Positions 8,296 through 27,367 of a DNA stretch of 27,367 nt are shown here, one piece after another. The DNA lies in contig JACVRA010000236.1 in the NCBI GenBank assembly GCA_019828545.1, forward strand, positions 1 to 27,367. Reading direction: 5' to 3'. A program made the translations under genes and the position numbers. The notes beneath the pieces were generated by a model. That model was given only the letters and a program-made list of their open reading frames with translations, was not told where the DNA came from and ran no database searches. The DNA comes from Paracamarosporium sp. OC-R06-R3 (lineage: Eukaryota > Ascomycota > Dothideomycetes > Pleosporales > Didymosphaeriaceae). Each line of letters begins with the position of its first letter. Position 1 is the first letter of the stretch.

Positions 8296-10380
8296 TTACG
8301 CGACCTCCAACCTCAGCGCATCATACTGCAAGTACACACTTTCCGGCAGTACCGCATCTTCTGGCGCCGTTGCACGCGCCGGCAAACTCAGTAAAATCTC
8401 ATTCTCGCCCACCTTCAGGAGCTCTGCCTCGAAGACAAACTTATGCCCTGTTGTGTAACATGTGGCCGCACTGCGTACCGCACAGCTTGACGAGTGCTGT
8501 GAGGGAATGGTCCAGGTTGGAAGCTGCTTTCCGTTGACAACAACGGTGTAGGGCAGATTGTTCCAGTCCTTGCTTGCGTTGTCATTGTTGCCGGCTGAGG
8601 TTTTGACACCGGCTAACTGGATGGTAAATGTTGCATTGGCCTTGTCGGCGATCTGCTGCTGCTTCAGGTCGAATGTGAGTGTCCAATTATTGACATTGGT
8701 ATAGTATGGGTCTTTGCGAACGTAGTTGGCTTTACCGCCGAAGACACTCCAGTGCACGTAGTTGAAGTCTTTTGCGGGGTCTGAAGTGCCGACTTTGAAC
8801 TTCACGCCGTTGGGAAAGTCGTTTGGGAAATCGTGGACAGCCCAGTACTGGCGGTATTGGCTTATGCCAAGGGACTTCGAAGTGTCTTTCTCGTCGCCAT
8901 GACGAAACTCGCCGCAGGACTTGTCCGGGGTGCCGATGCGCCAGAGTTCGGTGCCGGCGGCCTCTTCGGTCCAGGTTACTGTTGCTGTCTGCGTTTCTCC
9001 GGCTTTGATCTCGATTCCATCTTGCGTGTATTGACCGAATATCCCGTCCGCATATATAGTTAAGCGGTAGGTTCCTGCTTTCACAGAAGATATTGTACAT
9101 TTGCCGGAACTATCGATTTCGCCCCAGTATTGATACACCTTGCCCTCTTTATTATTATCCTGAAAGTCGGCGCCGTTGAGAGCTAGTACAGCGATGGCAC
9201 GTGTTGCACCCTTCTGGAGGGTTATGACGCCTTTAAAAGTGCCACGCTGGGAAGAGGGCACGAGATTAGGTACGTGTTGTGCTATCGAGTCATAGAAACG
9301 AGCCCAGTTGGAAATTGAAGTTTTGGTAGCGTCTTTACGCAGCTCCTGCAGGGTAGTTCCTTTTACGCCTTTGTTAAAGTAATAGTATTGCTGTGAGAAA
9401 AATGAGTTCATGCTTCCCAACAAAAAACTGATCAATGATGCGAACTCACCGGTCCAAAAGTGCGATCAAAGCCATTTATCATCTCCGGTACTCCATTCCC
9501 GTGGTGATTCGAAACTGCATCACCTTTAGATGACTGGTCATTCCTGGTGGGGCAATGGTAAGAACTTACCGAGATAGTTGTATACAATGCCATCCACTGT
9601 TAAATCCGAGTGCGTCGGTCCGCCAAAGTACGTGTCTTTGGTATTCATGACCAGCCATGCTCCAAACGCTGATCCGTCGCTACTTTTGCTGCCGTCTCCA
9701 TATAAGCCATGCACAATCTGATTCCTCCATTGCTCAGAGAACATATACTTGGTAAAGTAATCTGAAACCTGCTTGACATACGGATGGTCCTTCTTACCGC
9801 CCACATACCACGATGCGTCCTGCACTGTGGGAGCGCCGCTCGTGTCCGGCAAGGGGCCATACATCTCGTCGCTGGAAGACAAATGCGTCCAGAGCGAGGA
9901 AGTTGGGCGGAATAACTGGCGCATTTCGCCCAAGTCGCCACCGCTCGCCGTACGCGAGTTGTTGTACGATGCGCGCGCGAAGACGTGCATGCCTGTCTCG
10001 CCATCTCGCAAGAACCAATATTGCTCAAGCACTTTGCCTGTGTTTTGGTAATCATGGCTCATCATTGCGCCCGCATATGTCTCGCCATCTCCATCCGTGC
10101 CTTTCAATAGTTTGTAAGTGGCGCCATTTCCTGGGGTCCAGAATCCACTGTCGATGCAATGACAGTCAAGGTACGGTCCGCGTCCGGTGCCAAGTAGATT
10201 TTGCCCATCGAGTGATAGTTTGAAAACAGATCCCGAGCTCTTGGCGACGGAAAACGAGAGGCGGTCATTAGAGATGTTGATGGCGCTTTCATCCTCTGAA
10301 GATTTGATTGACGCGAGACCAACCGAGGCCCAGGACAAAAAGACGAAGAAGATCGCAAAGATGAGTTGAGACACCTTCAT
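8296..10380 (-). CDS. Rhamnogalacturonan lyase, polysaccharide lyase family 4
   Basis: This secreted enzyme cleaves the rhamnose-galacturonate backbone of rhamnogalacturonan I in pectin by beta-elimination. Exons on the minus strand are 10380-9570, 9523-9450 and 9390-8296, with introns of 46 and 59 bp; they add up to 659 codons without a break. The start at 10380 is preferred over the ATG at 10551 because it places a clear signal peptide (MKVSQLIFAIFFVFLSWASV) at the N-terminus. The order is an N-terminal beta-sandwich lyase domain (about 30-335, ending near NHHGNG...GFDRTFGPQYYYFNKG), an FnIII-like domain (about 345-435, with AGTYRLTIYADGIFGQY) and a jelly-roll C-terminal domain (about 440-655, with FNYVHWSVFGG and LQYDALRLEV). 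The gene looks intact. It suits a plant pathogen or saprotroph. Catalytic Lys and His residues known from the Aspergillus enzyme were not mapped. Confidence 0.9.
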
Positions 10381-10561
10381 CTTGACGACGAATCTTTGAC
10401 TGGCAATCCAATGGGGAACTCCATTTGTTTTTGAATCATTTTGCACGACGACGGGAAGAGATAGCCCGATCGGTTCATTACACACCGGTTGTTCGGAAGA
10501 AATACAGCTTAGGGCATCTGATGGAGCTGATTGGTGCAAAACGTAGTCCATAGTAATACTT

Positions 10562-13773: not shown

Positions 13774-15060
13774 CTAGAGTCGGTTGCTCTCAGTTTGCAT
13801 CGTCGCCACGTAATTCTGGCAAGACTCGACCTGCAACGCTCCCAAGAGTACGACTTTCAAAGTCTGGTGGAACAGGCGCATGAAGTGTACATGGATAGGT
13901 CCAGGGCTGGAATATTCACGCTCGCGACTGATCGTACATGACTCCAAAGAATCAAGAAGAAGCGTTTTAACCGAAAGCAGTTCAAGAGCAACATCCGCGC
14001 ATCTCACTTAAGCAACTTTATGGAGAAAGGCAAGGGTAGAGCCGGCCATCTTTCTCAGCTCAGTCCGCATATTGGGCGCAATCCTGCGAAAATCCTGAGA
14101 TGTGGGTAGTTTGCCGTTGGGAAATTTGGAACGATCAGATGATGAGTCTGTCACACCGATGACACTATTCGGTGTTGGAGAGTCCGCAAATTTACATGGT
14201 GCGGCGAACATTTTGACAACGAAGACGTCAAGTAAAGGCAACTGCACATGATTTGCTGGTGCGAGAACACTCGGCGCGATAAAGTACGGCCTGGCCCGGT
14301 GCTCATGCATGATCTTGAGTCCTCCGAGTATGTGATGGGCCATCGCAACGTAGTTCATCCGTGCTTGCTCAATGCTAATCAGGATTTGACAACAGAGAAG
14401 TGGGGAACTGGACAAGTTTGCACCCGGTGCGAGAAGATTGGAAGCGAGGCAGGCCCCGGAGAGTTATACTGTATTGCTCGAGGCCAAAGTGATAGGTCGG
14501 CGTGGGCCGAGCATGCGACGCAGGGCCATCCACAACCGCTTCCAGATCTGCCCGGAAGGCTTTCAGGGATAACATCGCGTGCCGTATGATCGGACAGGTC
14601 ACGCTATCCTGAATGACTTGCTTGGGTTCTTCTTTATATAGTATCTCTGCTCCGCCTATACTCTTGATCGACAAGTAGCCATGGAGAAGATCGATGTGCT
14701 GAGGCGTGATCGCACGACAAACAGAGAGGGCAGTATTCGAGGCCCAGCTCGACAGAATACTACTGGCACTGGCGTTTTCGAGCGATTCGCTGGTGAACAG
14801 GATGAAGGGGGATTCGTAGCCGTCGCAACTACGTCCCGTGGTGATACACTTTTGACAGGATGGTTTGTTCTCGTCACATTTAATCTTCCTTTTTCTGTCG
14901 CAGATTAAGTACTTGCTAGTTCGCATTCAACTCGACGTAGTTTGGAAAACAGAAAGATGCTGGAATCATCCGCTCTTACTGACCTACAGGTAGTACATCC
15001 ACTTCTCCCCTTTACTCTACGCTTAGTGCTGCGTTTGGGGGCCACGTCGGTGTCAGCCAT
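13774..15060 (-). pseudogene. Zn2Cys6 fungal transcription factor, frameshifted
   Basis: The ATG at 15060 opens exon 1 (15060-14984), which ends in GCTTCR. An 89-bp intron (14983-14895) splits the zinc cluster at a position common in this class. Exon 2 resumes with KRKIKCDENKPSCQKC and ITTGRSCDGYE, completing a CX2CX6C...CX2C...C binuclear cluster. The next part carries the helical segments of a fungal regulator, including TYHFGLEQYSITLRGLPRF. The frame then ends at 14375. The expected continuation (LLCCQILISIEQ... and HHILGGLKIMHEHRARP) is in another frame from about 14415 down to 14008. After a stop there, related-looking sequence goes on to 13774. One frameshift near 14430-14465 and one stop near 14010 therefore separate conserved blocks. 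It is most likely a recent pseudogene; a sequence error is the alternative. It faces the GST gene across a shared promoter region. Confidence 0.65.
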
Positions 15061-15264
15061 GTTGAGCATCTATGCTGCCGCGCACCTGTTACGGATCAAG
15101 GCGATGATAGAGCACCGATTTTAGTAGTCACACCGAACAGACGAATAAAACTTTTGACTTGGAGCTACTTTGTACCTGTCAAGTGTGGAGACGAAAATCC
15201 TTTGAGGCTGAGCGCAGTTATGTCACGGGCCAGTCATGTGGCCGCTAGCCCGAATGGTGAGCTA

Positions 15265-15328
15265 CGGCGAACCGACCAATCACAGCGAGTTTCGGAAAAG
15301 CTTCATCATCCCTAGGTTATTATAAATT
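15265..15328. promoter_or_regulatory. Divergent promoter: CGG-N4-CCG, CCAAT and TATA box
   Basis: Between the divergent regulator (start 15060) and GST gene (start 15497) lie an inverted CGG-CGAA-CCG (15265-15274), a CCAAT box (15276-15280) and TTATTATAAATT (about 15317-15328). Inverted CGG triplets are the usual target of Zn2Cys6 dimers, so the adjacent regulator could have acted here. The TATA is oriented toward the GST. Binding is inferred from motif and context only. Confidence 0.45.
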
Positions 15329-15496
15329 GGCGCTTGATGTACGAATAGTCTCCGAAGTGACTATGTGTACTGTAAAACAGGTTTGCAGTATAAATTCCGA
15401 GTCAATGCCACGATTCCTGGCCATTCCAATCTTCATCTGATGTGCAAGCTCGTAAACAGCACCCGATTCACGAAAAGATCATTCCACACCTCTAAA

Positions 15497-16248
15497 ATGC
15501 CGGCTTTCACTTTGCACGGTTTCCCTAGCTCGACAAATGTTGACCGAGTTCGCTTAACGCTTGCTGAAGGTGGCTTCACCGATTTCGAGTTCAAGGCTGT
15601 CGATCTCCTGAAAGGGGGGCAAAAGGTAAGGCTATATCGTTTTCCAGAAGATCATCCACAAACATAGAATTTTATTCACTAGATAGTTCCTTTCGCGGAG
15701 GCTGATCATGCACCAGTCAGAAGAATACCTAAAACTCCACCCATGGGGCAAAGTCCCAGCCATAACCTATCCCAACGGCTTTACTCTCTATGAGAGCCAG
15801 GCGATCTGCAAATACCTCGCGACCAAATACTCGATTCCGCCCCTACCATCCTCTTCCGACATCGAAGCTACGGCTGTGTTTGATCAGGCAGCCTGCGTAC
15901 TGAATGCCTACTTCACAGAGCCCTCAGCAAGGATCTCCATCGAGAAGTTCGTGAAACCGGATATGCTTCAGCTGCCCACTGACGAAGCTGCCGTGTCTGA
16001 GGCAGTGAAATCGCTTGGGGAATTCTTTGACGTGCAAGAACATTTGTTAAAGAAGGGCGGATACATAGCCGGGGAGCAATTCAGTCTCGTGGACATATAC
16101 TACATTCCTGCTATCCTGAGATTGTTCATGCTTGGTTATGAGGACATCGTGCGAGGTCGCCCTACTGTGTGGGCGCTTGGTAGGATCGTTGCATGAACCA
16201 ACCAGCAGTACAGGCGTGGATGGCCGCTGGCAAGAAGGCTACTGCGTA
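15497..16248 (+). CDS. Glutathione S-transferase-like protein, C-terminus disrupted
   Basis: Exon 1 (15497-15625) encodes MPAFTLHGFPSSTNVDRVRL, a thioredoxin-fold GSH-binding start. A Ser/Thr in the PSSTN stretch is the likely catalytic residue, as in phi-class-like fungal GSTs. A 91-bp GT-AG intron (15626-15716) follows. Exon 2 resumes exactly at SEEYLKLHPWGKVPA and carries TLYESQAICKYLA, with the Glu-Ser pair that binds glutathione, then the helical C-terminal domain. The first in-frame stop is at 16196, giving about 202 residues. The expected last helix (MNQPAVQAWMAAGKKATA) is readable in another frame to the TAG at 16246-16248. A one-base shift near 16175-16180 and a TGG-to-TAG change separate the two. 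The enzyme would conjugate glutathione to electrophiles in the cytosol. Whether the shortened form folds is uncertain. Confidence 0.8.
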
Positions 16249-16766: not shown

Positions 16767-16893
16767 NNNNNNNNNNNNNNNNNNNNNNNNNNNNNNNNNN
16801 ATTGATCTTTGGTTCACCTCTTATCACGCACTCCCATATGCCTCTGCCCGGAGCACACCTAGCACAGACCTTTTGACTACCTGCGCCGATACA
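16753..16893 (+). repeat. Left end repeat (copy B), not RIP-mutated, containing the assembly gap
   Basis: This copy keeps its C and G bases where copy A (1-95) has T and A. N bases fill 16767-16800. Its antisense strand is open from 16893 to 16801 and reads KVCARCAPGRGIWECV, a CxxC...C pattern. The repeat may therefore be a piece of a dispersed coding family and not a structural transposon end. Confidence 0.75.
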
Positions 16894-17541: not shown

Positions 17542-20113
17542 CTACGACAGAGCGTATCTGCTCGTACCCCTGATCTTCTTTCCATATCGATAAAAGACAT
17601 ACGGAAACCTGCATTGACGCATCGTCAGCTCTCCCGGTCTTCTGCAGCTTTTTGATTTTGGTTTCCTTACGGCGCCATGGCCAGCGTCAGAAACGCCAGT
17701 AGAGAGCTCGCCCAGGGATATCCCAGCGCTGTTGTGGCACATGAGGAACAATGGTCAGCCTGCTGTATCTGCTTGTTGGTGTCGAGCGGAATTGAACATG
17801 GGTCGCACACCTTGATACATCTGGATTCCAAACAGCGGAAAGGCTGCGGCAAAGACGCTCCTCGCAAAGCTGTTTGCGGCGAGGGCGCTTGCTGCATATA
17901 GAGGATACTGTCTCGGTATCAGCTGGCCGATCTGGTGGAGATATCTTCCATAGCGATGCGATGCTCTCGCCCTTTCGAAGTAAGACTTACGCAGTCGACA
18001 AGAAATGTGAAGATGCCTGAGTAGACCAGAATTATTCTACATCGTTCATAATCGTCAGCACGGGACTGTTCTTTCCTTTGTTAGAGTACCGTCCCTTCCA
18101 CTTACCCCATGCCAAAGAGTCCAGAAAATAAAATCGGAGCTGCAGCCCAAGTCAGCCTACCGCGTATACAGCTATCGAAGAGCGCCATTGGAAAGAGTCT
18201 CAAGACGATCAGACAGTCGTACCGATCCAAGGAATCTGCATTGTCGATACGTCAACAACAATCTCTCATCCGCAACGCGGAACTTTTTCTCTGCTGCTTA
18301 CCCATGGAAACATCGTCCAACCGAAGCCTACAAGCCATATGTCAGTATCCGCGTTCGCCATCATGTGAATGGCTTCAGAGCCGAGGGTACGACGTTGCTC
18401 ACCAAAAAGGCTGATGGGAACAAGGAAGGAACCCAATATGGTAGGCGGCAACCGAAATTCTGGTTCGCATGCTCCCTTCTGACCCGTTCGGGCCTCATAC
18501 TGTCGGAGAAGCCGCCTGTAGTTACGTGCCCACAGAGGGTCTGTCAAGACGCCGACGATCATGCCAACGAGAATTCCGAGAAACGACGTGCCCGTCTGCG
18601 AGAGGGTGAAGCCATGATTGTTCTCGAACACGAGCGGGAATGCACCAAAGAACAGGTACAGAACCCCAAGCAGGATGGCAGAGAGCGTGCAGAGGCATAG
18701 ACACTGTTGTTTCAGGCACCTGTTAGCCTGCGTGACATCTTGTGTATGCTCTTGGTACATGACACCAACATACCATTGGTTCAAGGAGCAGTAATTGGAA
18801 AGGTCTGACACATGACCACATGACGGTCTTCGATATGGAGCGGTCGAGCTTATCTATCGGGGCTGTCCATGCTCCATTGCCAGTTTCCTTTCGCAGACGC
18901 TCTGCTTTTCGGCGCAGTAGGACAGGAGGGTACGTCTCTGGCACGAGGAGCGTGATCATGGCGAGTTGCACTGCTGTCCAGATCAGAAGCACGTAGAAAG
19001 TCCAACGCCTGTGTAACAGTCAGAGAGGCGAACCAGGTGCGAGTCCGCCGGGCACGACATACCAGGTCGTGTATTGATTTATGAACCCTCCTATCAACGG
19101 CCCAAATATAGGTCTGAATGATGCACAGCCGTCAGCGACAGATCGGATCCTTAAAAAAGAAAATCACCTCACCCGAGAAACGGCGAGGCCGAGTAAACCA
19201 TCATTGGCGCCGAGAGCTCGTGGTTCGCAAACATGTCTGTGAACAGCCATCAGCCGTGATCCTCGTGCACCGTTTAGCCTAGAGCATTGCTCTGCAGCGT
19301 TACATCACAGACCTCGTATCGTACCGCCTGCAACAGACAAGAATGCGGCTCCAGATAAGCCGTCAAGAAAACGACAAACAAGCATTGTAGCCGCATTGTG
19401 CGCAACGGCAGACGGGATCAGCCAGATGAAGAAGAAGAAGAACGAGCCGATGTAGATTGGACGCCGTCCATAGAACTAAGCCATATCATCATAAGCCTTT
19501 TCGCTCATCCTCTGTTCGAGTTTCCTATGATGCTCGTTGGAGCACTTACCTCTGATAGCGGACTCAGAACCATGGGCCCGATGCCTGGACGTATGCATTA
19601 GCTGTATCAAGTCCGGAAAAGCATTTTGGAGGTTGCCGCTACGTACCAAGCCCGAGAACAAAAAGGGAAAGTCCCAAGGTTGCGACTTCCCTGGAGATAT
19701 GGAACTCTGGTATAATTTGGCCGTATGTAGACGTGTATATGGAAGAGACATTTGTGCTGATAGGGACATACATATTAGCGATGACCTTTCCTTCTCGATA
19801 TCCCTACACATGCCGCTGTACATGCCATCATCAACAGAGAATGTCATATCAATACTCACACGCATAGAGACGACGATCCGATGATGAATGTGATCATCCA
19901 TTTCCGCGCCTTGCTCAGTGACTGTCCTGGATGCAGCGCATCGTTTTCTTCCCAACCCACTACCCACGGGTCATGAGGAGGGTCTGCTTCAGCGTCCTTT
20001 GTCTGAGAGGCGCCATGCGGGTCAGGATCTCCACGCGCCGCAGCAGTCTCGGCTGAACTGTCAAAGCGGTTCTCCGCATCATAATTTTCCAGCTCTTTGT
20101 CTTTGGCGTCCAT
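17542..20113 (-). CDS. MFS transporter, DHA1 drug:H+ antiporter type
   Basis: Fourteen exons can be followed from ATG 20113 to TAG 17542: 20113-19860, 19756-19647, 19584-19550, 19475-19313, 19236-19173, 19113-19063, 19008-18774, 18703-18403, 18327-18302, about 18156-18106, 18036-17991, 17907-17811, 17728-17671 and 17608-17542. All have GT-AG introns. The product has a polar N-terminus with HDPWVVGWEEND, then membrane segments with the family motifs. These include SPLSEFYGRRPIYIGS, GGTIRDMFANHELSAPM, PIFGPLIGGFINQYTTWRW, VPETYPPVLLRRKAERLRKE, LYLFFGAFPLVFENNHGFT, IFTFLVD and RYGKKIRGTSRYALS at the end. It should export small molecules across the plasma membrane using protons. Exons sum to 1558 nt, one base over a multiple of three. 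The junction between exons 9 and 10 (18302/18156) is the only one that does not keep frame, so a one-base lesion or a missed splice site is likely. Confidence 0.8.
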
Positions 20114-20247
20114 CGCTGTACCTGCCGCCACTGCTGAAGATAACCTTCTAATCAGCTTTTTAATTGAGAGTATCAAAACGGAGCGTGGCTGTGATCGAAT
20201 ATGACTGTGACAAACAGACGACGGAGCGTTCGGAATTGTTGCGCTAT

Positions 20248-20267
20248 GTTGCAATGACTGAGGTCAT
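20248..20267. promoter_or_regulatory. 20-bp motif containing TGAC-N4-GTCA, copy 1
   Basis: GTTGCAATGACTGAGGTCAT lies 135 bp upstream of the transporter start. It recurs with one mismatch at 21437-21456, upstream of the bacterial-like ORFs. The dyad ATGAC-TGAG-GTCAT resembles paired bZIP half-sites, but the identity of the binding protein is unknown. Confidence 0.45.
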
Positions 20268-20487: not shown

Positions 20488-20718
20488 TACCGCATAATCT
20501 CAGACAATACGTTTATGCTAGGCTTAGATAGGCAGGTTGGTCCTCCAATCAGGTGCTGAGTTCTGCTATATAAGTGGATAGCACGTGATGTTTTGGAATA
20601 AATAAGGTAGTGGACATAGCTTCTCTCTCCACTTATATAGAGATCTATCCAATCACCGTATAGATTTGAACTTCTCTTTTGAGCCTAGCATAGACGTATC
20701 ATTTGAGATTATGCGGTA
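20488..20718. mobile_element. MITE with TA target-site duplication
   Basis: The 227-bp element (20490-20716) begins CCGCATAATCTCA and ends with the exact reverse complement TGAGATTATGCGG, flanked by TA on both sides. The arms remain related further in (TATGCTAGGC near 20515 against GCCTAGCATA near 20682). An inner inverted pair, CTATATAAGTGGA (20566-20578) and TCCACTTATATAG (20628-20640), makes the whole unit foldable. TA duplication points to a Tc1/mariner-type transposase acting in trans. Confidence 0.75.
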
Positions 20719-20868: not shown

Positions 20869-21046
20869 AATGTATTAATAAGGAACGCCCATGCACATCC
20901 TTGAACATTACGGGCCGGGTCTCGCTGATCTTAATGCAGCCCCCCCTTACGCTTTGGTGCTAACCTTAAGAGTAAAGTCCTGCCGCTTATTCTGAACTAA
21001 GACAACGCCGCCTCCTGTTAAGCAATTACCAAGCATTACTTATTAC

Positions 21047-21154
21047 CGGCATTTTAACGTTATCTCTTGCCCTGGTAATTGCGGCTGCCTACGGACTTAA
21101 CGGCATTTTAACGTTATCTCTCGCCCTGGTAATTGCGCCCGCACACGGACCACC
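21047..21154 (+). repeat. 54-bp tandem duplication
   Basis: A unit beginning CGGCATTTTAACGTTATCTC at 21047 is repeated at 21101. Both copies continue with CCCTGGTAATTGCG and a few substitutions. The second copy is also one arm of the inverted repeat with 21320-21371. Confidence 0.85.
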
Positions 21155-21371
21155 TAAGTGTGACGAATTAGAGTACTAGTTCTTTTAGCGCAAAACTCAA
21201 AAATATAAGCTTATAATTAGTAGATAGCAGAAATTATAGGATAGTCACGTGCCAGTTGTGTAACTCAGCCAATTATAAACTCGTATATTAAGAATTTTCA
21301 TCTTCCTGCCAAATTCACTACTAGTACTCTGGTCCGTACGCGGGCGCAATTACCAAGACGAGGGATAACAT
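21111..21371. repeat. Inverted repeat, possible small transposon relic
   Basis: The arm at 21111-21180 and the arm at 21320-21371 are reverse complements over GGTAATTGCGCCCGC, CGGACC and AGAGTACTAGT; the left arm has an extra 17-18 bp. The interior of about 140 bp is AT-rich. A shorter GCAATTACCAAG copy lies at 21022-21033. This is most simply a short non-autonomous element. Confidence 0.6.
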
Positions 21372-21436
21372 AATACGAATCAGGCTTACTCGCTCACCTT
21401 ATCGGCTTTCAGCAGAAAAACATACTGCTGCAATGT

Positions 21437-21456
21437 GTTGCGATGACTGAGGTCAT
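21437..21456. promoter_or_regulatory. 20-bp motif containing TGAC-N4-GTCA, copy 2
   Basis: GTTGCGATGACTGAGGTCAT lies 186 bp upstream of the acyltransferase ORF start and differs at one base from 20248-20267. It could be a shared operator. It could also be a repeat edge, since the sequence between the copies is largely repeat DNA. Confidence 0.45.
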
Positions 21457-21641
21457 ATAAATAATAAATAAAAACCTAGATACTATAAACAACTTGCTCA
21501 ACAACCTTGATACATGCAAATACTTTGTGGAAAGCAACGATCAACCAACACAACTAAATGCATGCATTCTTTCCCCCTGTGAAACCGAACACATACTAAC
21601 TTGGAAGAGACTAGACGAATTCATATTCATTCAGGCTAAAG
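21457..21641 (+). promoter_or_regulatory. Candidate fungal promoter and leader for the bacterial-like ORFs
   Basis: AT-rich DNA with ATAAATAATAAATAAA (about 21456-21471) and CTATAAAC (about 21483) leads into a leader of about 150 nt before the ATG at 21642. No Shine-Dalgarno-like sequence precedes the ATG (context GCTAAAG). The composition switches to GC-rich about 40 nt after the ATG. Transcription is not shown. Confidence 0.35.
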
Positions 21642-24056
21642 ATGATAACCCCACAGAACAAAGTGCCTACCAGCCAGGCCTTCACGCTTCGGCCCGTTGG
21701 ATTTTTTCCGGGCTTAGGCAGCCGCTCTGCCTATCGCACGCTCGAATGCGACCTCTCCCTGAGCGACGCGCCTGATATCCGCGATGCCTATGCACAAGGC
21801 GCCGCCGCCCTCGGCCTCGAGGCGAAGCAGATGGTCCTGACGCCGGCCAATCTGCCAGAAGATCGCATCGAGCGTCAGGCATTTGTGGGCGCAGCCCTGC
21901 TGGTGCATGGCATCGTGCTCCAGCGCCACCTCGACAGCGAAGCCGCGCGCGCAGGCACACAGATCCGCTTTGCCGCATTCACGGGCGAGAGCTTCGGCAT
22001 CATCACCGCAGCCGTTGCCGCGGACGCGCTGTCGATTGCCGACGGCACGAAACTCGCCTATTTGCTGGCGCCTTTCATCCTTGTCGGTGCCGAGGGCGCG
22101 CAGGGCGGCTCGCCCCTGCAGGCACGCATTGCGTCTCTTCTCGCGCGAAGCGGTGTGACGCAGCCGCTCGCGGCTGAGCCAGCCCATGTCGTCGGCCTTT
22201 CGGGTCGGCCGGACGCGCTTCAGAAGGCGCTCGCAGCCCTGAAAGAGCGGTACGGCGCGCAGGACGTGGAACTGCACAAGGTATACGCCGATCACCAGGC
22301 AAACCTGTATGTGCGCATGGGCATCCGGGAAAGCTTCGGTCTGTTCATGGCCAATTTCCCCGAGCTCTCCTTGCAGGAGCTGAAAGAACCGACGGCCTTC
22401 ATGGCGCATGCCGCCCGCATGGCACCCGTCCGCGAGGCATTCGCCCGCATCATGGACGAGGAGGGCGTCCAGTTTCGCGACGCCCACACACCGCTGATCT
22501 GCAACCACAAGGCCGCAATTGTTCAGCGCGCCGCCGACGTCCGCGAAGCCGTGCTCGCCGTCATCGATCGTGTCATGCAATCCCGCTGGACCGCCGAACG
22601 CTGCGAGCATGTCGGGGCCAATGTCGTGCTCGAGCTCGGCCAGGGCGACAAATCAATCCGCCTCCTCAACGACAACGGTCTGACCCTGCCTGCAATCGGC
22701 TATGCGGGCGCCCCCCACGCTACGGAAGCCTTGGTCGAGGCGGCACGACTGCTGCAGGCATTCGGGGAGACGGCCCGCTCCGACATGCAGTCGACGGACC
22801 TCACGCCGGACGCGCTGGCACTTTTGCGCCGCATGTTTCAGGTGCCCGCGCGCTATCCTGAAATTGCCGAATTCCTGCGTGGGGAGTTCGTAAAGACCAT
22901 CGCCGCAAGCCAGATCGGCCGTCGCCACCCCCTTGCCCCCATGTCGCGACGCTTCATCGAGGTCTATCAGCACAGCATTGCCGCAGCAGGCGACCTCGAC
23001 CTCGATGCTGGCGAGCTGGCACTTCAGGTTCAGGCCAAGAAGACGGTCGTGGGCGACAGCCACACGCTCGGTCGCGTGAATACCGAGATCAAGGTGCTGC
23101 GTGCTGACGGCACCATTGTCCACCGCATTTCCAACGCCCGGTGGACCCCCGAGGCGCTGGTTTTCTATTGCAGCAGGCTTGAGCATCACCCGGCCGTGGA
23201 ACTGATCCACGCTGGTCGGCGCATGGCCGAACACACGCCTGAAATTGCGAAACTCTATCGCTCCTCCTCAGCCTTTCTGTCCTTCGACCTGACCGACACC
23301 CTGCAGATGCCCTCAGGCATGCTGCGGCCCCGCGCCATCGCCGCTCTGCAAATCCTGCATCAACTCGCCATGCTGACATTGCTGCGCCGTGAGCGGCCGG
23401 CAATCTTCACGTCGCACGACGTTTACCACGCAGGCGGCGACCTCTTGGGGTGGTGCGTCGCTCTGGCCGCCACCAGCGCCTTGAGCGCACGTGATGCGGT
23501 TGCACTCTATGCGACGCATTTGCAGACAACGGAGAAAACGGATGTTGCGGACCCTGTCGAGAGACTCGATACGATCCTCGATCGCCTCCGCGAGCCCACG
23601 GCCCCAATTGTCGCGGCCAGTGGCAGCCCCCTCATCACCATCAAGGATATCGCGCGAGAGACACGCGCCCTGTTCAGCCAGAGCCATGCCGCTTTCGACG
23701 CACGCCGCCACAAACTGCGGCTGAACGGGGACGTGCAGATCGTGTGCCTGGCATCCAGACCCGCGCATAAGACATTCGACACGACGCCCTTTGGCAGCGA
23801 GGTCACGCTTATCGCATCCTCTGCGGACATCGGGAGGCGCCGGCATAATACGGGGCATAATACAGCGCTAGAAGCTCTGGAACATGGTTGTATGTCCTCG
23901 CTGACGGGCGATAACCAGCGTGTCCTGAAGTTTGCGCAGGGCCGCAAGATCCTCAGCAGCACCGTCTTTTCCTACATAAAGCTGGGCGAACAGGTGCTCG
24001 GCTTCGGCCAGGGCGGCAGTGAGTCCATGACGATATTCGTGACCCAGCAGCCTTAG
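21642..24056 (+). CDS. Bacterial-like double acyltransferase (FabD-type plus degenerate second copy)
   Basis: An intronless ORF of 804 codons, GC-rich with bacterial-looking codon choice, unlike all neighbours. Residues about 18-345 form a malonyl-CoA:ACP acyltransferase (FabD/PKS AT) fold. FFPGLGSRS (21-29) matches the FPGQGSQ start. GESFG (115-119) puts the nucleophile at Ser117. AHAARMAPV (255-263) supplies the catalytic His256 in the place of FHSPLM. LELGQG (330-335) matches the closing VELGPG. Residues about 565-680 look like a second, shorter acyltransferase in which GGDLLGW (598-604) replaces GHSLGE, so Asp600 sits at the Ser position and the copy is probably inactive. The rest (345-560, 690-804) is unassigned. 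The likely role is loading an acyl group onto a carrier protein or ketosynthase partner, but none is present in the window. The stop is TAG (24054-24056) and the next ORF continues in frame. Confidence 0.8.
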   Translation: MITPQNKVPTSQAFTLRPVGFFPGLGSRSAYRTLECDLSLSDAPDIRDAYAQGAAALGLEAKQMVLTPANLPEDRIERQAFVGAALLVHGIVLQRHLDSEAARAGTQIRFAAFTGESFGIITAAVAADALSIADGTKLAYLLAPFILVGAEGAQGGSPLQARIASLLARSGVTQPLAAEPAHVVGLSGRPDALQKALAALKERYGAQDVELHKVYADHQANLYVRMGIRESFGLFMANFPELSLQELKEPTAFMAHAARMAPVREAFARIMDEEGVQFRDAHTPLICNHKAAIVQRAADVREAVLAVIDRVMQSRWTAERCEHVGANVVLELGQGDKSIRLLNDNGLTLPAIGYAGAPHATEALVEAARLLQAFGETARSDMQSTDLTPDALALLRRMFQVPARYPEIAEFLRGEFVKTIAASQIGRRHPLAPMSRRFIEVYQHSIAAAGDLDLDAGELALQVQAKKTVVGDSHTLGRVNTEIKVLRADGTIVHRISNARWTPEALVFYCSRLEHHPAVELIHAGRRMAEHTPEIAKLYRSSSAFLSFDLTDTLQMPSGMLRPRAIAALQILHQLAMLTLLRRERPAIFTSHDVYHAGGDLLGWCVALAATSALSARDAVALYATHLQTTEKTDVADPVERLDTILDRLREPTAPIVAASGSPLITIKDIARETRALFSQSHAAFDARRHKLRLNGDVQIVCLASRPAHKTFDTTPFGSEVTLIASSADIGRRRHNTGHNTALEALEHGCMSSLTGDNQRVLKFAQGRKILSSTVFSYIKLGEQVLGFGQGGSESMTIFVTQQP

Positions 24057-24062
24057 ACCACC

Positions 24063-26954
24063 ATGCCTCTTGATACGAGCAAACCCATCATCGTCCGCAA
24101 AATCCTGAGCGAGGCCCTGATCTCGGTCGGGTGGAACTCGGAGGGCGAGGGCGTCATGCTCCCACCCTTCGTCAAGGCCAAGCGTCAAGCGGAATTTCTG
24201 AAAGCCCTCCCAGACCCGGCACGGCGGTATTTCCCCGAGGTCTTCGACATTCTGGAGCGCGAAATTCCCGTCCCCCCGCATCAGCGGCAGGACATGCAGC
24301 GCGACAGCTTCAAGGAACTCATCTACGAAATGAGCTTCGTGCCGGGCGAGGAAGTCAGCCGCTATGTGGAGCGATGCAGCCCGCCGCCTGCAATCGTCGC
24401 GCGCATCTATGAACAGATCGCGCTCGTCCTGGCGCGCGATGTCCATAGCCTTCGCCGCACCCCGGCACCGGGCCAGACACTGGAGACGTCGTATTTCCAC
24501 AAGATCGAGGCACGGCTGGCACTCTGCAGGCGCACCGCCCCGCTGACGTTCAGCCCTCATTTGCTCGATACGGACCACATCGTCATCAACGGCGTGCAGT
24601 ATCGCAATGTCGGCACCTTGCTCAAAGCTTTTCGGGAGCATCCCGCCTATGGCGAGATTCTGGAGCCACGCTTCCATGCGCTCGTCATGGGTGACACCAA
24701 CACGGAAAACATCAAGATCAACAATCTTGGCCCCTTGCAGCACGCACAAACACTGATCGAAAGCGGTGCCGCGCAATCCGAGATTGATGCAGCACTCGAT
24801 GCCATGACTGCGACTTCGATGGACCTGCGCTTCTTCGACCCGCGCGCCATCGGCTTTGCAAGCGAGGGTGCCGAGACGCGTGACGACCCCATGTATGACA
24901 ATAAGCCGTGGCACAACTCGCTCGGCCATTACGACGAAATGCACCATGAGCGTTTCGAACTCAACGTTCGTACCGGGCCGAACCAGACACCCGATATCCA
25001 CATCACCTACGAGCCGAACAACCCCTATGCGCGCGCTTATCGCGTCGAGGACTTGACGGAACGCGGCATTGATGTCGCAAGCCAGCCCGGCGGTGTGGGC
25101 ATGGAGCATTATTTCGCGCCGGTAATGCGCAAATTATACGACATGGACAATCCGAACTCGCCCCGTACAGCCGAAGACCCGCACTGGCTGGTGCGGTTCG
25201 TCTTCATCATGGGCACACATTTTACCGCCATGCCGCCGTTTCATTTCCAGACCGAACTCGGCGGCGAGTTGATCGATTCGCTGCTGGTCCAGCGACGCCC
25301 GGTCGCAATTTTTTGCGAAGGCATCCGCTGGCTGAACTGGGCCCTGCAAATGCTGGAAGGCACTCGACGTTCGTTTCTGGGCATCCAAGTTCCCGCAGCA
25401 TCGGTCCCGCATCAGCCCCATTATGATGCCGGGTCACCGGTACCAGACCAAGAACCTCGACCAATGGCCATTTCGCCCAATCCTGCCTTTTCCCGTATCG
25501 GCATGGCCGCTATGGCACCGGAATCGCGCGTCATCTGCACGCCCTGGAGCCGCATGGTGCGGGGCCTGGCCCTCGGCCAGTACCCGGTCGGCTATGATGA
25601 TGCCATTGCCGGCATCATCACCCAGGCACGCGATATCCTGACGCGACAGGTCACCAAGCCCACGGGCTACCTGCGTTTTGCGCTCCAGCTTGCTGAACTC
25701 GGCATCGCGCTGAACCGGCCGGGCGCGCGCGTCACACAGGACGAATTGCAGACCCGCGCCACCGGGCTGATGAATGCCCTCGGCGCTGAAACAAACCCCT
25801 ACTACGCAGCCGTCGGCGGGGGCATCCTGTTTGACGCATTCGCGAAATTCCGGCTCGACATATCCCTGCTCGTCAACAGCACGCGCGATTTCGCAGCCGA
25901 GATGCTGGACGTGATCGACCGCATCCAGCCAGACCAGATCAAAGACGAAAACGCAGGCAACCACGGCGAATACGAAAAGCTCTTCGCCTACACCTCAATC
26001 TTCCTCGGGATCGGGCAGGCAGGCCTGACCAACAGGCTGACCAGCGGCCCGCGCAATTACGTGCGCGAGGCCCTACACCTCATCCAGACCGTCCCCTCCC
26101 CGTTCTTCAAGGGCCGCGGGTGTTCGATGCTGTTTTCCGTCCTCTCCGCCATCGGGCTGGACGGCATGATTTTCGACGACGGGCACGACTTCATGAAGGA
26201 GGTGCTGGAATACGTCGACCGTGATGACAGCATCGACTTCCCCTTACGTTTCCCGCAGCCCATCACGCGCGCCTACGTGAAGATCTACCCGCGTATCACG
26301 ATGCTGAACGCAATTGCTATCTCGGGGCGACATGAATACGCCACCATGGGGCATGACCGGGTCGCAGAACTCAAGCCGCTCTGGGCTGAGCTGGAGCCGG
26401 CGGAGAAGATGCACCAGAGCCTGTATTATCTCATCGCCCTGCACAATCTCGGTCGCACCGAACAGGAAATCGGCAGTGTCCATGTGTTGATGGATGAACT
26501 GCTCGGCTATCTGGACGTTGTGGATCCGGGCGCCAATTTCTTCCTCAACGGCCTCAGCCACGCCTACGTCGTCGAATCTGCCATGCTGACCGGGCGTCTG
26601 GGCGATATACCGCCGCAGGAGATTGATCGCATCGCCGGTTGCCTCAAGCGGATGGATGCAACGCCGATCGACCGGGCAAGCCGCGCCTATCCGTTCAGCT
26701 ACAACCTCAACGCACTCGGCGAAATCGGCAAGGCTGGCGCGTTAATGTCCCCCAATCCGGTTTACGGCGGTGTTTCTGCCTTCTCATGGCTGGTCGAGCA
26801 ATTTTCGCCGGATGGCCAGACTGAGGGCAGCCGCCTGTTGATGCTGGGCAATGCGCTGATGGGTTTGGGCTTACGTCTTCGCCCCAAAGAACAGTCATCA
26901 ACCCCGATGTTTGATGATTTCGCCAGGCGCCGCGGGTGGAAGATCGAGGCCTAA
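24063..26954 (+). CDS. Bacterial-like phosphotransferase-domain protein with large helical C-terminus
   Basis: An intronless, GC-rich ORF of 963 codons, 6 nt after the previous stop and in the same frame. Residues about 60-440 resemble the APH/choline-kinase-like phosphotransferase fold. VPGEEVSRYV (93-102) fits the lid region and YFHKIEARL (144-152) the helical insert. VMGDTNTENIKI (208-219) corresponds to the HGDxxxxNI catalytic loop with Asp211 and Asn216, although the usual His is Met209. FFDPRAIGF (257-265) holds the metal-binding Asp259. DPMYDNKPWHNSLGHYD (275-291) matches the DxxYDxAKLxHSxxGxYD stretch seen in kinases of bacterial polysaccharide clusters. Residues about 505-963 are almost wholly helical (for example GRGCSMLFSVLSAIGL, SLYYLIALHNLG) and I do not recognise them. 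Some helical-toroid fold is possible. The ATG context is ACCACCATGC with no Shine-Dalgarno. Substrate unknown. Confidence 0.75.
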   Translation: MPLDTSKPIIVRKILSEALISVGWNSEGEGVMLPPFVKAKRQAEFLKALPDPARRYFPEVFDILEREIPVPPHQRQDMQRDSFKELIYEMSFVPGEEVSRYVERCSPPPAIVARIYEQIALVLARDVHSLRRTPAPGQTLETSYFHKIEARLALCRRTAPLTFSPHLLDTDHIVINGVQYRNVGTLLKAFREHPAYGEILEPRFHALVMGDTNTENIKINNLGPLQHAQTLIESGAAQSEIDAALDAMTATSMDLRFFDPRAIGFASEGAETRDDPMYDNKPWHNSLGHYDEMHHERFELNVRTGPNQTPDIHITYEPNNPYARAYRVEDLTERGIDVASQPGGVGMEHYFAPVMRKLYDMDNPNSPRTAEDPHWLVRFVFIMGTHFTAMPPFHFQTELGGELIDSLLVQRRPVAIFCEGIRWLNWALQMLEGTRRSFLGIQVPAASVPHQPHYDAGSPVPDQEPRPMAISPNPAFSRIGMAAMAPESRVICTPWSRMVRGLALGQYPVGYDDAIAGIITQARDILTRQVTKPTGYLRFALQLAELGIALNRPGARVTQDELQTRATGLMNALGAETNPYYAAVGGGILFDAFAKFRLDISLLVNSTRDFAAEMLDVIDRIQPDQIKDENAGNHGEYEKLFAYTSIFLGIGQAGLTNRLTSGPRNYVREALHLIQTVPSPFFKGRGCSMLFSVLSAIGLDGMIFDDGHDFMKEVLEYVDRDDSIDFPLRFPQPITRAYVKIYPRITMLNAIAISGRHEYATMGHDRVAELKPLWAELEPAEKMHQSLYYLIALHNLGRTEQEIGSVHVLMDELLGYLDVVDPGANFFLNGLSHAYVVESAMLTGRLGDIPPQEIDRIAGCLKRMDATPIDRASRAYPFSYNLNALGEIGKAGALMSPNPVYGGVSAFSWLVEQFSPDGQTEGSRLLMLGNALMGLGLRLRPKEQSSTPMFDDFARRRGWKIEA

Positions 26955-27236
26955 AATCCCGAGGCCCTGGCAATGGGCGGTTTGGTCCGGGACTAATTGT
27001 TACGACCGTCACTGCAGGAAGCCCAGGAGAGGCTTTGGTAGAATGCATAGAGGAGAAGCCTAAGCTAATAGAAGATAACGCCACACAAGCAACTAAGTCA
27101 CGCGATATTTCAAGAATCTCATTGTTAGAATAGATGAAATAGATTGAACAGCACAGCCTATCTTAATATTCTTAATAGCAAGACCAGCGAAACAGTTACT
27201 ATATAGACCTTTATAATAAATTGCTTTTCTACTTAT
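26955..27236 (+). other. 3' flank of the bacterial-like ORFs, no gene recognised
   Basis: GC-rich for about 100 nt after the stop, then a transition to AT-rich fungal-type sequence from about 27055. An open frame (26936-27133) crosses the boundary but has no motif. No terminator hairpin of bacterial type is evident. Confidence 0.5.
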
Positions 27237-27362: not shown

Positions 27363-27367
27363 CGAAA

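Follow-up and report, generated by a model that had tools for sequence, protein, structure and literature searches.

Horizontal transfers of bacterial operons into fungi have been described in yeasts, with two such events cited in PMC13376923. In the Wickerhamiella/Starmerella cases (siderophore and thiamine), as cited in PMC13376923 and PMC11952965, the fungal genome carries neighbouring bacterial genes that belong to a single pathway. A comparable arrangement occurs in contig JACVRA010000236.1 of Paracamarosporium sp. OC-R06-R3 (GenBank assembly GCA_019828545.1), in which two adjacent open reading frames (ORFs), ORF A and ORF BC, form a cassette encoding an acyltransferase (AT) unit (A), a kinase unit (B) and a helical unit (C). 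As in the siderophore case, a fungal transporter gene adjoins the bacterial-type genes; unlike the yeast examples, the host is apparently a filamentous fungus, the donor is Acetobacteraceae-like and the enzyme is uncharacterised. In addition, a 6-nt bicistronic spacing is kept here, whereas PMC11952965 (2025) reports that operon structure was lost in the transfers it cites. The IGG1/IGG6 bicistron of Glarea lozoyensis (PMC10352335) displays a similarly short stop-to-ATG spacer and uses reinitiation; nevertheless, it comprises fungal genes, whereas the cassette spacer goes back to overlapping bacterial genes and reinitiation across it is putative. On balance, we favour the reading that a transferred Acetobacteraceae-type operon has been kept and acts as one two-chain machine. 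The window analysed is the entire contig, 27,367 nt, from a 43.1-Mb assembly of 337 contigs, and its features are collected in Table 1.

Relatives of ORF BC were recovered at no fewer than 54 bacterial loci (at least 54, by an exact-peptide scan of a one-genome-per-species collection), and three plasmid records added by tblastn bring the total to 57, in which ORFs were mapped onto the two fungal proteins to assign A, B and C. Full-length homologues stand side by side in bacteria, where the initial annotation had suggested looking for the same adjacent pair, and their existence indicates that the cassette ORFs are no chance open frames. The module occurs from Omnitrophota to actinomycetes, with layouts comprising (i) fused A-B and a separate C, the commonest bacterial form (31/57); (ii) A, B and C as three ORFs (4/57, all Acetobacteraceae and 4/4 of the loci there; also in L088); (iii) A, then B carrying part of A, then C (4/57); (iv) all units in one ORF (3/57, all Omnitrophota); and (v) B and C without A (6/57, mostly cyanobacteria), the remaining loci being single or cut cases, including C beside an AT-B fusion and B beside an AT-C fusion. 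Bacterial fusions thus join A-B, A-B-C, AT-B and AT-C, and the B-C fusion with a 6-nt A/B spacing is new here, a layout present in 0/57 bacterial loci. Among 397 Acetobacteraceae genomes, themselves a sample of a larger group, a family-wide search found ORF BC relatives in 5, which makes the occurrence of the operon in this family sporadic. No relative of the cassette was found in a viral contig collection, leaving viral carriage unsupported.

Phylogenies with 29 rows for A, 31 for B and 29 for C, computed from a chosen part of the loci by a quick method with Shimodaira-Hasegawa-like approximate likelihood ratio (SH-aLRT) support only, all group the fungal sequence with those of the five Acetobacteraceae (SH-aLRT 100 in each case). 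The fungus is sister to these five in the A (89) and B (99) trees, whereas the C tree does not resolve this position. Identity to the Acetobacteraceae proteins is 60-63% for A, 72-77% for B and 70-75% for C, and cassette codon usage correlates better with that of Asaia and Gluconacetobacter (r 0.82-0.88) than with three native ORFs of the window (r 0.55-0.60), pointing to slight amelioration. The adjacent genes are nested in a bacterial clade and embedded in eukaryotic DNA. The initial annotation had proposed bacterial origin by horizontal transfer, and the three trees, the codon usage and the shared bacterial gene neighbourhood agree with it: the cassette is almost certainly bacterial in origin, and a horizontal operon transfer from an Acetobacteraceae-type source, a three-gene operon of A, B and C, is supported. 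Vertical fungal inheritance was rejected for the sampled data, the trees (which included no fungal collection) containing no bacteria-free clade.

A chimeric assembly, or contaminating bacterial DNA joined to fungal sequence, would explain the bacterial-like codon usage and GC content (63.3% in ORF A and 60.1% in ORF BC), and would suit a contig that stops 413 nt past the ORF BC stop codon (at 27367) in an assembly that holds two mitochondrial genomes and looks mixed; these points count against a transfer. On the other hand, fungal DNA lies on both sides of the cassette, with the joins falling at the two ORF ends, and a short-word comparison of the flanks with the five Acetobacteraceae loci matched nothing beyond short stretches expected by chance and the final codons of C. 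A 16S covariance search of the assembly gave only two full-length matches, which are AT-rich, have tRNAs nearby and lie on mitochondrial-looking contigs, and a DnaA search gave none, although 13/14 control genomes were positive; in both searches only the best candidates were scored. Near-invariant residues, defined as common to at least 97% of bacterial rows (cyanobacterial rows omitted for C), are kept at 227/230 positions (A 59/60, B 113/114, C 55/56), which together with the lack of bacterial 16S or DnaA matches speaks against both contamination and decay. The operon boundaries also differ from those of all five Acetobacteraceae. We regard a chimera or contaminant as very improbable, and the cassette is probably not a contaminant. 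The loss of the bacterial GGAGG and gene overlap described below, together with the B-C fusion, fits life in a eukaryote; against this, an unsampled donor could already have had the altered boundaries.

The two ORFs, 804 and 963 aa without internal stop, are as long, intronless and GC-rich as the initial annotation had stated, and ORF A shares with FabD/MCAT (PF00698, TIGR00128) the fold, the GxSxG serine and the catalytic histidine, in line with its earlier description as a FabD-like acyltransferase. The catalytic pair is kept throughout the alignment of A (S117 in 39/39 filled rows, H256 in 40/40 rows). In FabD, an arginine binds the malonyl carboxylate. The equivalent position, taken from alignment to 3k89, is L142 in the fungus and F in 35, L in 4 and a gap in 1 of the 40 rows. 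A therefore departs from FabD/MCAT in having F or L for arginine in 39/39 filled rows, in scoring below the curated cut-offs (15.8 versus 32.7 for PF00698; 33.1 versus 260.9 for TIGR00128) and in carrying a fused, degenerate second copy. In this copy, GDLLGW (23436-23453) occupies the position of GESFGI in the first, and hhalign comparison of the two halves gives moderate support (E 5.3e-5 and 1e-4, probability 67 and 58%). An assignment of GGSES to the end of the degenerate copy was dropped because the same motif is N-terminal in stand-alone B ORFs.

B (residues 1-445 of ORF BC) shows a choline kinase/aminoglycoside phosphotransferase (APH)-like fold with the P-loop, the GDxxxxN catalytic loop and the Asp of DPR, the conserved kinase residues comprising the GGSES P-loop, encoded on ORF A, and D211, N216 and D259. 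Unlike choline kinase and APH, it reaches no Pfam family (against PF01636, 1/62 rows at E 0.025 and 0/29 at E <= 1), displays motifs of its own, including the very conserved DDPMYDNKPWHNSxGxYD, and is split in Acetobacteraceae and the fungus. Sequence-only searches of PDB, Pfam, NCBIfam and PHROGs with B and C (residues 468-963) gave no convincing match, and neither belongs to a curated family. The folds of A, B and C match the initial annotation's proposal of an acyl-transfer/phosphotransfer system with an unrecognised helical module. Class III lanthipeptide synthetases combine a kinase with an alpha/alpha cyclase, in the order lyase-kinase-cyclase; the cassette shows a kinase and a helical part, with no lyase by Pfam and a loose whole-length match (rmsd 18.5). 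Zinc-binding cysteines are typical of LanC-type cyclases, though several class III cyclases lack them. In the cassette, the C columns conserved in 90% of 47 rows include no cysteine. A LanC or terpene-cyclase reading of C was not used, the top Foldseek row being drimenyl diphosphate synthase at E 0.015 and rmsd 19.8.

The GFGxGGSESMT motif at the end of ORF A stands at the N-terminus, directly before VRK, in 9/9 stand-alone B ORFs; an hhalign profile comparison with the A/B junction of fused proteins gives E 1.6e-27; and across 29 aligned unsplit kinases GGSES is conserved jointly with VRK, GDTNTEN and DPR. These three observations identify the motif as the kinase P-loop hairpin. The ORF boundary falls between the P-loop and VRK in the fungus and in 5/5 Acetobacteraceae; the kinase is thus very probably split between two chains, with the P-loop on A and the remainder on BC, and a working kinase would need both chains or a recoding event. 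In the five Acetobacteraceae (5/5), GGAGG precedes the B start, and A and B lie in different frames with an 11-nt overlap. Both the GGAGG and the 11-nt overlap are absent from the fungal junction, at which A and BC share one frame, so that readthrough would likewise rebuild the kinase. An intron across the junction was ruled out because the GTGAGT at 24019 lies inside the invariant GGSES codons, and 38- or 61-nt introns from this site because they would shift the frame. The gap between B and C in bacteria measures 81-84 nt in L002, L003 and L005 and is longer in L004 and L088. Purine-rich, Shine-Dalgarno-like stretches likewise precede the bacterial A and C starts examined (A in L002, L003 and L005; C in L004, L005 and L088); no GGAGG or Shine-Dalgarno-like stretch precedes the fungal A, BC or M468 starts.

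Table 1. Features of the cassette and its surroundings in the 27,367-nt window
Feature	Position	Strand	Details
ORF A, 804 aa: acyltransferase, degenerate acyltransferase copy and start of kinase N-lobe	21642..24056	+	intact, intronless
FabD/MCAT-fold acyltransferase domain, residues 15-372	21684..22757	+	GESFG at 21984-21998 (S117); His256 in AHAARM at 22404-22421
Degenerate acyltransferase copy, residues ~386-685	22797..23696	+	hhalign of two halves
Kinase domain start on ORF A, P-loop motif GFGxGGSESMTxF	23709..24053	+	GGSES at 24012-24026; motif in 9/9 stand-alone B ORFs
A/BC junction: TAG stop and 6 nt (ACCACC), then ATG of ORF BC	24054..24062	+	same frame
ORF BC, 963 aa: kinase core fused to C	24063..26954	+	intact, intronless
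B, choline-kinase/APH-fold kinase core	24063..25397	+	VRK 24093-24101, GDTNTEN 24690-24710, DPRAIG 24837-24854
Linker, low model confidence	25398..25463	+	stop codon and intergenic gap at this place in bacteria
C, helical alpha/alpha-toroid-like protein	25464..26951	+	M468 = start of separate bacterial C gene
Multi-exon MFS transporter gene, divergent from cassette	17900..20263 (approximate)	-	MFS_1 E 5.8e-5 on 19308-19475; other exons by eye
MITE-like element	20488..20718	.	37-nt inverted ends; relatives elsewhere in genome
MITE-like element	21113..21369	.	40-nt inverted ends; upstream of cassette
Fungal repeat at contig end	27237..27367	.	38 places in genome including this one

The trees and layouts indicate that a filamentous fungus acquired an Acetobacteraceae-type operon of A, B and C, whose conservation suggests retention under selection. 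After or during the transfer, B and C became a single ORF, and the A/B overlap gave way to an in-frame arrangement of stop codon, 6-nt spacer and ATG. Since 6 nt leave no room for a promoter, one mRNA with BC translated by termination-reinitiation is the most likely arrangement, although an internal promoter inside A is possible; we give a single bicistronic mRNA an even chance. PMC10352335 and PMC11952965 document that translation can restart behind a short spacer in fungi and yeast.

Alternatively, the TAG may be read through, or be a sequencing error, yielding a single A-B-C protein of ~1,770 aa with an unsplit kinase. A and BC stand in frame, only TAG and 6 nt apart, whereas the A and B frames differ in the five bacteria, and unsplit A-B is the commonest bacterial form (31/57), with three loci all-in-one; these features weigh against two separate chains. 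A shared frame is nevertheless expected by chance in 1 of 3 cases, and the same split occurs in five Acetobacteraceae genomes, which shows that two chains can work. We know of no strong readthrough context of the TAG-ACC kind, and ACCACCATG is a good initiation context. Readthrough or error is judged improbable.

A third scenario, in which BC goes untranslated or is driven by a separate promoter inside A, the cassette being recent and not yet used, appears rather unlikely. Un-ameliorated codon usage would suit it, as would the statement in PMC11952965 that yeast normally cannot translate polycistrons, and both count against expression as a bicistron. Set against this, 227/230 near-invariant residues persist although the end branches measure 0.25-0.44 changes per site, and B and C are fused in frame while A is spaced from BC; the conservation argument is limited in that part of the end branch may have been passed in a bacterium. 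Returning to the bicistronic reading, it is tentatively proposed that the fungus translates a tight bicistron whose products pair to rebuild the kinase, the complex acting as an undescribed acyl-transfer/phosphotransfer/toroid synthase. For the question of how transferred bacterial operons are activated in eukaryotes, this locus, with 6 nt between its ORFs, provides a natural test case, and a split kinase would be an added reason for both frames to stay together.

Comparison with unsplit homologues suggests that A and BC assemble together, as A supplies the P-loop and BC the remaining kinase, and the fusion of A, B and C in several combinations and orders in bacteria argues for one complex. 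In such a two-chain machine, the Ser-His acyltransferase may transfer an acyl group other than a malonyl-type one, the kinase may phosphorylate either acceptor or product, and C, the helical unit, may enclose it, the product being a small metabolite exported by the MFS pump; this biochemistry is offered as a possible scheme only. Most likely, the cassette would build or modify a small metabolite for export, with detoxification of a foreign compound by acylation and phosphorylation as its main rival. The latter, which we hold to be less probable, draws on the APH-type kinase fold, the drug-type major facilitator superfamily (MFS) and one-component regulators nearby, carriage on a small plasmid in Acinetobacter larvae and the glutathione S-transferase (GST) gene in the fungal locus, all of which tell against a biosynthetic role. 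Resistance enzymes, however, are seldom three-part machines, and two Streptomyces plasmid loci, with MFS_1 directly upstream and ArsR, a response regulator and a FAD monooxygenase beside it, look biosynthetic; the cyanobacterial B-C loci adjoin oxidoreductase and decarboxylase-like genes. The cyanobacterial neighbours read as molybdopterin oxidoreductase subunits, alcohol dehydrogenase and amidohydrolase-like proteins (names partly by eye). MFS_1 was found in 12/94 upstream and 2/77 downstream ORFs of 41 bacterial loci (~1/3 of cassettes), and the fungal cassette likewise has an MFS_1 gene as its neighbour. Literature searches with a limited range of terms found no paper on the A/B/C gene set, and with at least 54 loci and no curated family for B or C the module may mark unexplored metabolite clusters.

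Omnitrophota L011, L012 and L034 encode a single giant ORF (3,224 aa, 3,130 aa and one cut), in which, for L011 and L012, the C part is repeated and a long N-terminal region matches nothing in Pfam. The 12-kb plasmid pRW1 of Acinetobacter larvae (L057) carries the cassette and two toxin-antitoxin pairs. At six loci, five from cyanobacteria and one from an alphaproteobacterium (L047-L051, L054), B and C stand without A next to molybdopterin oxidoreductase-like, alcohol dehydrogenase and other genes, hinting at an older two-part core.

The surroundings of the cassette largely match their earlier description. The flanks are AT-rich (38% GC at 21370-21641 and 41% at 26955-27236) with two upstream elements resembling miniature inverted-repeat transposable elements (MITEs), and the neighbouring gene reads, as predicted, as a multi-exon gene, here an MFS transporter on the minus strand. 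As to repeat-induced point mutation (RIP), positions 1-1000 show a strong and 21000-21370 a moderate RIP-like bias in dinucleotides, which is not seen in the cassette or its immediate flanks. ORF A and ORF BC are each single copy, the sole match in an assembly search being the cassette itself. A Zn2Cys6 regulator fragment (-) and a GST gene (+) lie at 14378-16196, near the MFS gene and the cassette, and regulator, GST, MFS and cassette resemble a small metabolic cluster. Further upstream, a polysaccharide lyase family 4 gene (rhamnogalacturonan lyase-type) occupies 8299-10551 (-), with Pfam domains II and III on 8299-9435. A run of 34 N at 16767-16800 directly adjoins a copy of the contig-end repeat family.

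Two fungi may be mixed in this assembly, as it contains two different mitochondrial genomes, on contigs C300 (L108-L110) and C26 (L111, L112), with two small-subunit rRNAs. Their cox1 proteins share 84% identity over 508 aa, and the C26 genome includes a 785-aa fused ORF of cox1-cox2 type.
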